From contig JACQPN010000021.1 in assembly GCA_016207515.1 (NCBI GenBank), positions 124,001 through 188,000 on the forward strand: a stretch of DNA of 64,000 nucleotides, written 5' to 3'. Below the pieces are notes generated by a model. The model saw nothing but the letters and a program-made list of their open reading frames with translations, had not been told where the DNA came from and did not search any database. This DNA is from Euryarchaeota archaeon. GTDB lineage: Archaea; Thermoplasmatota; SW-10-69-26; JACQPN01. Positions 14,984 to 19,449 of this stretch are shown here, piece after piece (position 1 is the stretch's first letter; every line of letters begins with the position of its first letter). A program made the position numbers and the translations under genes.

Positions 14984-15242
14984 GCGGACTTCGGCTTCGC
15001 CTTCGTCCGCTTACTCCGATGTTCTCGCTGACGCTCGAAGATCGTCACTTCGATGACTAGCTTCGCTCGTCATCTTGTCCTCGCGTTCTCGCTCACGCTC
15101 GAACGCTCGGATTTCGATGACTAGCTAGCACTCGTCATCTCGCTTCCGAACAACTCGCTGACCCTCGTTGTTCGTCAGCGTCGCCGACTCCGGCTTTGCC
15201 GTCGTCCGCTTGCGCCGATGTTCTCGCTGACGCTCGAACATC
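14984..15242. repeat. Array of small hairpins with variable stems and a conserved loop
   Basis: Seven imperfect or perfect palindromes of 23-27 nt lie head to tail next to tRNA-Asn: 14984-15010, 15018-15043, 15052-15074, 15083-15106, 15116-15139, 15148-15173 and 15217-15242. Stems differ but remain self-complementary (GATGTTC/GAACATC, GCGTTC/GAACGC, GAACAAC/GTTGTTC, GATGAC/GTCATC), while the asymmetric loop stays close to TCGCTGACGCTC (variants TCGCTCACGCTC, TCGCTGACCCTC, TAGCTTCGCTC). No convincing ORF overlaps. The region 14906-15247 holds nothing else. Confidence 0.75.
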
Positions 15243-15247
15243 GTCAC

Positions 15248-15320
15248 GCCGCGGAACGGATTTGAACCGTTGACCGTCCGGTTAACAGCCGGACGCTCCA
15301 CCAGACTGAGCTACCGCGGC
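15248..15320 (-). tRNA. tRNA-Asn (GTT)
   Basis: 73 nt, no intron, no encoded CCA. Acceptor GCCGCGG pairs with CCGCGGC, D-arm GCTC...GAGC with GG in the loop, anticodon stem CCGG/CCGG around loop CTGTTAA giving anticodon GTT, and T-arm with TTCAAAT loop. It is flanked on its 3' side by the hairpin array and on its 5' side by an inverted repeat containing a TATA-like AAAAAG. Confidence 0.95.
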
Positions 15321-15326
15321 ACGACC

Positions 15327-17456: not shown

Positions 17457-17682
17457 CGGATGATTCGATTCGCTCATCATCCGCGCCACGATTCTGCTCT
17501 CTGATACAGGTCGAACCGCGGGCGCGCTAGACTCTTATACTCGGATTCGCTTGGCGATTCCTCGGCCCAGAATGAAACGCAAGTTTCATTCGGGCCAGGT
17601 GAAGTGAGGCTTCACCCCGGCCCTCGTGGACTCGCCATGGCTCGTCCACCGGGCCTCGCCGAGCTCGCTTCGCTCGCTCGGC
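17457..17682. repeat. Hairpin array immediately upstream of tRNA-Val
   Basis: Intergenic region 17409-17685 is mostly palindromes: 17457-17483 (CGGATGAT/ATCATCCG around TCGATTCGCTC), 17564-17596 (GGCCC plus GAATGAAAC-GCAA-GTTTCATTC plus GGGCC), 17598-17616 (GGTGAAG/CTTCACC), 17619-17655 (GGCCC and GTGGAC stems around TCGCCATGGCTC) and 17658-17682 (GCCGAG/CTCGGC around CTCGCTTCGCTCG). Loops again follow TCGC..CGCTC while stems differ. The same family as the array beside tRNA-Asn. Confidence 0.75.
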
Positions 17683-17685
17683 TTC

Positions 17686-17759
17686 GGGCTCATGGTCTAG
17701 TTGGTTATGACGGCGCTCTCACACAGCGCAGATCTCCGGTTCGAATCCGGATGAGCCCA
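17686..17759 (+). tRNA. tRNA-Val (CAC)
   Basis: 74 nt, no intron, no encoded CCA. Acceptor GGGCTCA/TGAGCCC, discriminator A, D-arm GTC...GAC with TTGG, anticodon stem GCGCT/AGCGC around CTCACAC (anticodon CAC), T-arm TCCGG-TTCGAAT-CCGGA. Its 3' two-thirds is the start of a long direct repeat and its 3' end is copied several times downstream in both orientations. Confidence 0.95.
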
Positions 17760-17855
17760 TGAAAGGCCGAGCGAAGGCGAGGCCGCTTCATGGGTCATCC
17801 GGAGTCAAGATGACGAGCGTTTGCGAGTCATCGAAGAATCCGGATGAGCCCATCG
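17707..17855 (+). repeat. Direct repeat copy 1 (tRNA-Val 3' part plus ~95 bp)
   Basis: 149 bp, matched by 19302-19449 with one visible difference: the loop GAGCGTTTGCGA here against GAGCGAAGCGA there. It starts inside the tRNA D-arm and ends after a second copy of the tRNA tail. Such tRNA-anchored direct repeats normally mark the ends of integrated elements; the interval to copy 2 is about 1.45 kb and holds fic. Confidence 0.8.
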
Positions 17856-18049
17856 ACGAGCGTCGCGAGGACATGGGCGAGGCCGGATTCAAGGTGGCGA
17901 AGCAATGCGGAGTCATTGCAGAATCCGGTTGAGCCCATCGCGTAGCGAAGCGAGGAGGTGCACGAGCGCGGATTCCAAGTGGAAGACGGACCGGAGTCCA
18001 CGGAGCCGCGGTGAAGCAAGGGTTCACCGGGGAATCCGGATGAGCGCAA
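17746..18049. repeat. Alternating direct and inverted copies of the tRNA-Val 3' end
   Basis: The 18-nt tail GAATCCGGATGAGCCCAT recurs in direct orientation at 17743 (the tRNA), 17836, 17921 and 18032, and in inverted, more diverged form around 17787-17803, 17873-17890 and 17969-17975. Neighbouring opposite copies form nested hairpins: 17746-17803 has about 21 base pairs around GAGCGAAGGCGA, 17836-17890 pairs GAATCCGG/CCGGATTC and GCCCAT/ATGGGC around a GAGCGTCGCGA core, and 17885-17926 pairs GGATTC/GAATCC and GCAATG/CATTGC. The gap 17760-18077 contains no gene. Confidence 0.75.
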
Positions 18050-18077: not shown

Positions 18078-19133
18078 CTAGTCGCTGGTCGGCCGACGGA
18101 CCTCGTGAAGGGACGCGACAGCATATCTGGTAGCTTCCCCTCGCCCCGATCTCTTGACCAGGCCCAGCCCTTCGAGATCCCTCAGGCGGCGTTGGACGGT
18201 CTTGTCGCTCGCTCCTGGAAAGAAGACACGTGCCTCTCGGAATCGGAAGGATGCCGCCTTGTGGATGTAGACCCATTCCAGAAGTTCTTGTCCCCCAGCC
18301 TCGAGATTCGGAGGGATCCGTTGGAGGCGGTCGCCAAGCAAATGGATCCTTACGTATCCGTCGACCACTGTACTGGCGAAGTAGTTGGCCCAGCGTTCTG
18401 GTCTGCCAACGTCGGCCTCCTCGAGCCCAGCGTAATACTCCCCTCGGTCCTCGTTGATGGTGTCGTCGATCGGGCAGTACCTGATGTTCGGGAGGCCACC
18501 GATCGCGAGCACCGTAAGGGTCGCAAGCCGGCCGAGACGCCCGTTTCCATCGCCGAAAGGATGTATCCGTTGGAATTCGTGGAAGAAGTAGGCAGAGCGC
18601 GCGAGTACGGGTAGATTTTGGGACGGGCCGTTGAGCCATGTGAGGAGTTCGTCCAGGTCTTTTTGGACGCGTTCCTTTGGCGTGGTCTCGAGGACGCCGT
18701 GGGGTCCGACGACCACATTGTCCTGCGTTTTCCATTGGCCGGGTTTCGCGTCGTTTTGGAGGGGGACGCCCGCGAAATATTCTCGATGTAATTGGCGCAG
18801 GTCATCCTTGCTCAAGGGAAACGACGCGCGTGGAAGGTCTTCGACGAGACGGAAGTAGTTCAGGACTTCGACCTCCGTTGGGAGAACGCGGCCGGGTCTC
18901 ACCGCTCCGGCTTTGTAGGTTCGGTAAAGTTCCTCGACGCGGGCAAGCTCGATCGGTCCGGCGTCGATGTTGGTCGTTCCCCACCCATTGCGGATGAGTG
19001 CGTATTGGTAGAGGGTTTGGCGGACGCGAAGACTGAGGCGATCGCTGGGGACCCCCGCGTCCAACCGGCGGGCTTTTTCGCTTTTCTCGAGAAGGAATAG
19101 GCTGGATTCCAATGTCCGCATTAATACGGTCAT
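18078..19133 (-). CDS. Fic-domain protein with C-terminal winged helix
   Basis: 351 aa. Catalytic motif HPFGDGNGRLGR at residues 191-202 is complete, so AMP transfer to Ser/Thr/Tyr of a target protein is expected. TTNIDA at residues 53-58 resembles the (S/T)xxxE(G/N) autoinhibitory helix of class II Fic proteins, with Asp instead of Glu. The C-terminal ~75 residues (ARVFFPGASDKTVQRRLRDL, then EGLGLVKRSGRGEATRYAVA) are a winged helix. It sits between two copies of a tRNA-anchored direct repeat and has a markedly AT-rich promoter, both signs of acquisition. Host target unknown. Confidence 0.9.
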   Translation of the reverse strand: MTVLMRTLESSLFLLEKSEKARRLDAGVPSDRLSLRVRQTLYQYALIRNGWGTTNIDAGPIELARVEELYRTYKAGAVRPGRVLPTEVEVLNYFRLVEDLPRASFPLSKDDLRQLHREYFAGVPLQNDAKPGQWKTQDNVVVGPHGVLETTPKERVQKDLDELLTWLNGPSQNLPVLARSAYFFHEFQRIHPFGDGNGRLGRLATLTVLAIGGLPNIRYCPIDDTINEDRGEYYAGLEEADVGRPERWANYFASTVVDGYVRIHLLGDRLQRIPPNLEAGGQELLEWVYIHKAASFRFREARVFFPGASDKTVQRRLRDLEGLGLVKRSGRGEATRYAVASLHEVRRPTSD

Positions 19134-19154
19134 ATATCTGATATAATATTTATA

Positions 19155-19164
19155 ATTTATTAAA
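19155..19164 (-). promoter_or_regulatory. AT-rich promoter of fic
   Basis: About 40 nt (19130-19170) is almost entirely A+T, unlike the surrounding DNA. TTTAATAAAT on the minus strand is centred 27 nt before the fic ATG. Confidence 0.5.
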
Positions 19165-19280
19165 GAATGACTGTGTTAATCAGGTCGCCAATCCTGTCAT
19201 CACGCTCTTCGATCGGGTAATCGGTTGTCGGTCTTGTTCGCCAATGGTCGCCTCCAACTGCTTCCCCAAAATGAAGGTCT

Positions 19281-19354
19281 CGGCTCATCCTCCAGCTGGC
19301 CATGACGGCGCTCTCACACAGCGCAGATCTCCGGTTCGAATCCGGATGAGCCCA
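19281..19354 (+). pseudogene. Decayed second tRNA-Val copy
   Basis: Same length as tRNA-Val (74 nt), with an identical sequence from the D-arm to the discriminator base including anticodon CAC. The 5' 20 or so bases are diverged: CGGCTCA replaces GGGCTCA so the first acceptor pair is lost, and CTC replaces GTC so the D-stem no longer pairs with GAC. Probably non-functional. It is the outer end of direct repeat copy 2. Confidence 0.65.
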
Positions 19355-19449
19355 TGAAAGGCCGAGCGAAGGCGAGGCCGCTTCATGGGTCATCCGGAGT
19401 CAAGATGACGAGCGAAGCGAGTCATCGAAGAATCCGGATGAGCCCATCG
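19302..19449 (+). repeat. Direct repeat copy 2
   Basis: 148 bp matching 17707-17855. Contains the tRNA-Val 3' part, the inverted tail, the GATGAC-GAGCGAAGCGA-GTCATC hairpin (19404-19426) and another tRNA tail ending at 19449. Confidence 0.8.

Follow-up and report, generated by a model that had tools for sequence, protein, structure and literature searches.

The tRNA-Val locus and its array

The window, by which we mean the whole 64-kb stretch of DNA analysed here, comes from a MAG of a Thermoplasmatota archaeon and contains a tRNA-Asn gene, a tRNA-Val gene followed by an array of copies of its own tail, and a second, degraded copy of this tRNA-Val, with a Fic-domain gene between both tRNA-Val copies (Table 1). 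Further direct copies of the tail of the anchor tRNA-Val (GAATCCGGATGAGCCCA) lie at 17836, 17921 and 18032, and the four positions that an earlier, sequence-only reading of this DNA had assigned to the direct copies (17743 and these three) were recovered exactly. The same reading had placed about three inverted copies between them; I1 and, imperfectly, I2 are indeed found, and the third, I3, is weak. The core loops that it had described as GAGCG..GCGA are present as hairpins of the form stem-GA-GC-GNA/GNNA-GC-GA-stem (GA hairpins), as in GATGACGAGCGTTTGCGAGTCATC, which combines a tandem GA/GA internal loop with a small terminal loop. The array is real and chance is ruled out as its source; an Rfam scan returned no family that fits it at the gathering cut-off.

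Table 1. Features of the two tRNA loci and of the second tRNA-Val copy, in window coordinates.
Feature	Position	Strand	Basis
tRNA-Asn, other tRNA of the window	15246..15321	-	ARAGORN
GA hairpin GTGGACGAGCCATGGCGAGTCCAC, upstream of tRNA-Val and directed away from it	17626..17649	-	hairpin pattern scan
GA hairpin GCCGAGCGAGCGAAGCGAGCTCGGC, upstream, adjoining tRNA-Val 5' end	17658..17682	-	pattern scan, fold
tRNA-Val (CAC), anchor of the array	17686..17759	+	ARAGORN; Rfam tRNA 65.1 bits
D1, tRNA-Val tail from T loop onward	17743-17759	+	inside anchor tRNA
Tip hairpin a (TGAAAGGCCGAGCGAAGGCGAGGCCGCTTCA), between D1 and I1	17760..17790	+	fold
I1, inverted tail copy, 15 nt, 87% complementary	17790..17806	+	sequence comparison, fold
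GA hairpin GATGACGAGCGTTTGCGAGTCATC, between I1 and D2	17809..17832	+	pattern scan, fold
D2, direct tail copy GAATCCGGATGAGCCCAT, identical to D1	17836..17853	+	sequence comparison
I2, inverted tail copy, imperfect	17872..17890	+	sequence, fold
D3, direct tail copy GAATCCGGTTGAGCCCAT	17921..17938	+	sequence comparison
I3, weak inverted copy, only GCGCGGATTC	17966..17975	+	sequence, fold
D4, final tail copy GAATCCGGATGAGCGCAA	18032..18049	+	sequence comparison
Fic-domain gene, between both tRNA-Val copies	18078..19133	-	PF02661, E 1.2e-16
Degraded tRNA-Val and one full unit D1-a-I1-GA hairpin-D2	19280..19447	+	95% identical over 133 nt to 17687-17819

The expectation that neighbouring copies of opposite orientation pair into hairpins is borne out by folding. 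Folded alone, D1:I1 reaches -24.0 kcal/mol (-9.2 in shuffles, z -7.0), I1:D2 -20.9 kcal/mol (z -6.8) and D2:I2 -16.7 kcal/mol (z -3.8), and the complete array has a z of -6.9 when folded as DNA and of -8.3 when folded as RNA. I1 can pair with D1 or with D2, two mutually exclusive arrangements that both lie far under their shuffles, and the matches among copies are far above those in shuffled or control sequence, so that this test, which the sequence-only reading had named as one that could overturn it, leaves it standing.

The second tRNA-Val copy scores only 37.2 bits as an Rfam tRNA and is followed by one unit, as compared with three at the first. The stretch 18078-19447 holds the Fic gene between two 95% identical tRNA-Val tail segments with a spacing of 1,595 bp, and the damage to the distal copy is located in its first 21 nt. 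The region looks like a mini-island, and the Fic gene is a passenger outside the unit. Downstream of tRNA-Asn, beside which no clear tail copies were found, GA hairpins occur on the minus strand at 15216-15243 and 15083-15106.

Own-tail copies across the genome

The last 20 nt of 49 tRNA genes were scored against the 300 nt downstream of each gene, with the tails of the other tRNAs as comparison. Own direct tails score 11.4 on average and those of other tRNAs 7.4; the own tail reaches at least 11 downstream of 22 of the 49 tRNAs and ranks first in 22, and the own inverted tail reaches 11 in nine. In the controls, for which the tail was sought upstream or at a distance of 400-700 nt, or the head downstream, 0-1 direct copies were seen, and the own 5' head is copied upstream in ten tRNAs (0 in the control). 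Of 77 direct copies, 53 end at the discriminator base and 46 begin within the T loop or beside it (54-61). A large number of copies are partial tRNAs, split by a hairpin placed at a tRNA loop, and tRNA introns were considered as a reading because these copies break at positions 22/23, 45/46 and 56/57. A chance origin of the tail copies is ruled out by the comparison of own and other tails, by shuffles and by the distance controls, and a cDNA of mature tRNA is ruled out by the genomic trailer and missing CCA of the archaeal copies. The sequence-only reading had thought of a single odd site; what emerges instead is a phylum-wide pattern with a counterpart in E. coli.

GA hairpins and their orientation

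The window contains six GA hairpins and shuffled windows 0-2; every one of the six flanks one of the two tRNA loci or the second copy of tRNA-Val. Since the GA/GA step is part of the search pattern, its presence in the hits proves nothing. Across the genome, GA hairpins located at most 300 nt downstream of tRNAs are predominantly in sense (22 versus 2 antisense) and those at most 300 nt upstream predominantly antisense (14 versus 2 sense), and the hairpins therefore face outward on either side. The motif GACGAN{7,11}GAGTC is counted 123 times in the genome and its reversed control seven times. When 43 GA hairpins are compared, nearly all outer stem positions show each of the four Watson-Crick pairs, and the innermost pair three of the four. 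Kink-turns were ruled out by inspection, the GA/GA loops missing the three-base bulge.

Hairpins that face outward on either side of a tRNA would also follow from template switching during replication or repair, by which the tail would be copied repeatedly back (as I) and forth (as D) in a functionless mutational by-product whose hairpins are kept perfect by quasi-palindrome correction. The order D1-trailer-I-hairpin-D2-trailer is the one expected from two successive switches, and the arms, direct as well as inverted, agree with the gene beside them, some protein gene ends included. We nevertheless consider this origin improbable: the homologous cores at different tRNAs described below require transfer of the core, and the tandem GA mismatches and GNA/GNNA loops persist though correction should remove mismatches.

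GA-hairpin arrays are also seen behind protein genes (L109, L110, L111, L113 and L120), where they echo the final bases of the coding sequence, stop codon included. The echoes at L109, L111 and L120 keep the order of parts seen at tRNAs, and at L109 the loop TTCTGGAATTGAA is constant with both stem arms co-varying.

Relatives and the g48 element

A lack of inverted copies in related genomes would have told against the sequence-only reading, but own tails in both direct and inverted orientation are present there: in two genomes of the window's order (G001 and G002), in one of another family (G010), in G079, which is AT-rich, and, weakly, in G097. Direct own-tail copies number 5 among 30 tRNAs in G001, 7 among 30 in G002 and 5 among 30 in G010; the figures for G079 and G097 are 7 of 20 and 2 of 23. 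GA hairpins are scarcer or missing in relatives, and hence the layout of tails is the more widespread trait.

In an AT-rich relative genus (g48), two species have a unit that can be recognised as an element about 140 nt long, with the tail copy ending about 168 nt past the tRNA. It forms a three-way junction in which P1 is made of the inverted arm and the tail copy, and P2 and P3 are hairpins. A covariance model of this unit has matches in 14 of 36 genomes; an annotated tRNA lies near 17 of the 24 loci checked, and four further loci have a tRNA tail immediately upstream as read by eye. In an alignment of 40 matches, which was fitted to the structure and so favours it, 93.7% of cells are paired and 28 of 34 pairs have both-sided changes, with 291 double-change cells as compared with 79 when shuffled and 32-59 in slid controls, which agree with the structure; none of 500 shuffles is equally good. 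An independent MAFFT alignment (13 of 34 pairs) agrees as well. These compensatory changes support one structure, be it RNA or DNA, between which they cannot separate.

The strong covariation of g48 is in keeping with a structured RNA co-transcribed with the tRNA, the I:D stem of which would mimic an acceptor/T-stem minihelix for processing enzymes or protect the trailer, and which would have spread from one tRNA locus to another by ordinary tandem duplication and by gene conversion. In the structure-fitted alignment G-U exceeds A-C (18:0 in P1 and 19:5 in the P2 core and P3, 37 versus 5 in total), as expected of an RNA under selection, and the trailer often recurs past the direct copy. An unbiased hairpin scan, however, reveals no G-U preference (26 G-U versus 22 A-C, the downstream and upstream sets being summed and including much background), and several relatives have a T-rich, terminator-like trailer between tRNA and unit. 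The upstream arrays in the window's genome, moreover, are an antisense mirror image that a sense RNA does not explain, and the outward mirror orientation of the GA hairpins speaks for a process at the DNA level.

When 21 g48 copies were compared, the best core match was usually found at a different tRNA. The Ala core of G054 matches G083 Ser at 0.87 and G083 Ala at 0.62, its Val-CAC core matches G083 Pro at 0.84 and the orthologous G083 Val-CAC at 0.51, and its Glu copy 2 matches G083 Pro copy 2 at 0.83; Arg is the only vertical core pair (0.99). The arms, on the other hand, always match the local tRNA, and comparison of two ortholog pairs (Ala and Val-CAC) by eye shows similar trailers ahead of the inverted arm but different cores. 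Judged by these matches, the cores would have been either inserted or converted between arrays, simple vertical descent being excluded.

A second, unrelated unit type in G054 and G083 (L266, L275 and L290) starts with CCAAATTACTTGCGTC, has its own hairpins, ends in the local tRNA tail and sometimes stands in tandem after the first type. In G002, an intact tRNA-Phe (L170) lies between pseudo-tRNAs, each with a 50-nt hairpin insert at the variable loop.

The E. coli counterpart

The 178-bp repeats of E. coli tyrT/tyrV have the order tail, spacer, inverted tail (GGGGAAGGATGAGAAGCTTCGA), GA hairpin (CTCGAGCGCCAGCGAGAG) and tail, repeated. Similar units lie behind lysT, lysW, lysY, lysZ, lysQ, lysV, argQ, argZ and argV, and units were found at 11 of the 52 tRNAs examined, a count in which the argY match is assigned to the neighbouring argZ. 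At lysQ and lysV a terminator is followed by an inverted T arm (GATTCGAACCTGC), core, tail and terminator, in the same order as in archaea. A core probe matched 5,338 of 5,426 E. coli genomes, at 1-20 places each.

Among E. coli strains, single tRNA-Lys genes differ in having or lacking a unit. In five strains, the lysT-valT spacer measures 135 or 35 nt, lysW-valZ 149 or 51, lysY-lysZ 146 or 48 and lysZ-lysQ 132 or 33; the difference is one unit of 98-100 bp ending in ATCCTGCACGACCCACCA, and the lys spacer sites vary independently of each other. The tyrT array holds 0-4 RtT annotations, depending on the strain. Mobility or turnover of units is observed in E. coli and in the archaeal relatives. 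Taken alone, the filled and empty sites of E. coli fit insertion and could equally be explained by deletion between the repeated 18-bp tails, which is a point against cassette mobility.

RtT (Rfam RF00391; rttR, tpr) and the archaeal arrays share the same part order: both are tandem repeats of a unit that ends in the tRNA tail and contains an inverted tail. Their cores differ; the RtT model (gathering cut-off 45 bits) matches only E. coli loci, with no match at E<=1 in nine archaeal loci (L001, L046, L043, L028, L025, L103, L105, L283 and L279). In the literature searched, RtT is classed as an RNA family and not as a tRNA-tail cassette. That classification, together with the location of the E. 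coli units inside tRNA operons, again points to a structured RNA, but presence and absence among strains argues against an essential one, and we regard the RNA explanation as rather unlikely.

Comparison with known systems

The arrays resemble integron cassettes and their attC sites in having a series of short units at one anchor, each of them delimited by a foldable site that is partly inverted. They differ in that the units have no ORF, no integron integrase was found in the arrays, the anchor is a tRNA tail and each array has its own tail sequence. A kinship with attC, which the sequence-only reading had mentioned as a known foldback structure, finds no support, since no integrase family tracks the arrays; what they have in common is an overall foldback shape.

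With REP/REPIN, BIME, BoxC and other intergenic palindromes the units share being short, non-coding, hairpin-forming and present in many copies per genome. Unlike these, they are fixed at gene ends, mostly of tRNAs, with arms that copy the neighbouring gene and stems that vary between copies around constant GA/GA steps and loops. A palindrome conserved regardless of gene end, as in REP/REPIN, was not what we observed: the stems vary fully.

Integrative elements offer a third comparison. Sublocations of their tRNA attachment sites were described by Williams (2002), as cited in PMC9897764, and the direct tail copies bounded in the T loop resemble such sites. The arrays could accordingly be relics of ordinary elements that used the tRNA 3' end for attachment and left attL/attR tails behind, direct copies that start in the T loop being the trace left by tyrosine integrases and the second tRNA-Val with the Fic gene resembling a small island. 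We deem this very improbable. The tandem units measure 75-190 bp, are gene-less, include hairpins and an inverted arm, have no element or integrase between the tails, and are thereby unlike remnants of this kind. No dedicated tyrosine integrase tracks the arrays, the array-rich G010, G054 and G083 having a single PF00589 match each, and of the five integrases in the window's genome, four are located behind tRNAs that lack a downstream tail array (Leu, Asn, Gln and Glu). We found no description of such tail arrays in the open-access literature searched.

A foldback-cassette interpretation

As the best explanation we propose that the arrays are foldback cassettes without genes that come and go at the 3' end of the tRNA, probably via a folded DNA strand, and to this we give about an even chance. 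The tRNA-Val array would then be a run of three small cassettes behind the tRNA. Each unit consists of a trailer or tip hairpin, an inverted tail copy (I), a hairpin core and a direct tail copy (D); the core would be the mobile part, and both arms would belong to the resident tRNA. Gain and loss would take place precisely where the tRNA ends, and therefore the tail would be duplicated and the tRNA left intact. The unit may act as a folded DNA strand, with a terminal I:D stem that imitates the T-stem/acceptor tail, and it may enter, or be copied, at the boundary between T loop and tail. Copying of one arm from the other would keep the arms complementary, and loss could proceed by simple recombination between direct tails.

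Repeated insertion at the tRNA 3' end, as envisaged in the sequence-only reading, draws support from outside the window, namely from the filled and empty sites of E. coli and from the non-orthologous g48 cores with local arms, although the core swapping in g48 can be explained by gene conversion between arrays, a point against insertion. At the window locus itself no filled/empty pair was found, the three and one units at the two tRNA-Val copies being the sole contrast within the genome, and it is by analogy that the window units are presumed to behave like those in relatives. The vertical Arg core pair also speaks against the proposal, as does the fact that no recombinase was found. Foldback copying, the other process suggested in that reading, accounts well for an inverted arm that matches its own tRNA, but it is unproven. 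We infer an enzyme, a DNA rather than RNA route and foldback templating; towards DNA we lean with low certainty.

The coming and going of units between strains suggests that they are tiny mobile DNAs of a poorly understood kind, with tRNA genes as their anchors. It is possible, though we put it forward only tentatively, that gene-less mobile hairpin cassettes span both domains, with tRNA tails as universal landing sites, movement as folded single-stranded DNA and the host tail written into both arms. The old oddity of the E. coli tyrT operon becomes one case of a widespread archaeal and bacterial pattern, and gain, loss and mechanism are directly testable, since units are present or absent at single E. 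coli tRNA genes. If the folded-strand route is true, this would be a recombination system without genes of its own that acts at the most conserved genes of the cell.

Further hairpins and tRNA-like genes

In the window's genome, a second hairpin type, with loop TCCCCAACAGTCCCAA and variable stems, is found behind tRNA-Ser genes and one protein gene end (L043, L046, L055 and L111). Finally, contig C12 carries at 158-169 kb a cluster of tRNA-like genes (GGCGGGGTCGCCTAGC...; L056 and L112), each with similar upstream (GAAAACAAAAAGGGACTA) and downstream sequence, which may represent either an unusual family of tRNAs or an element.
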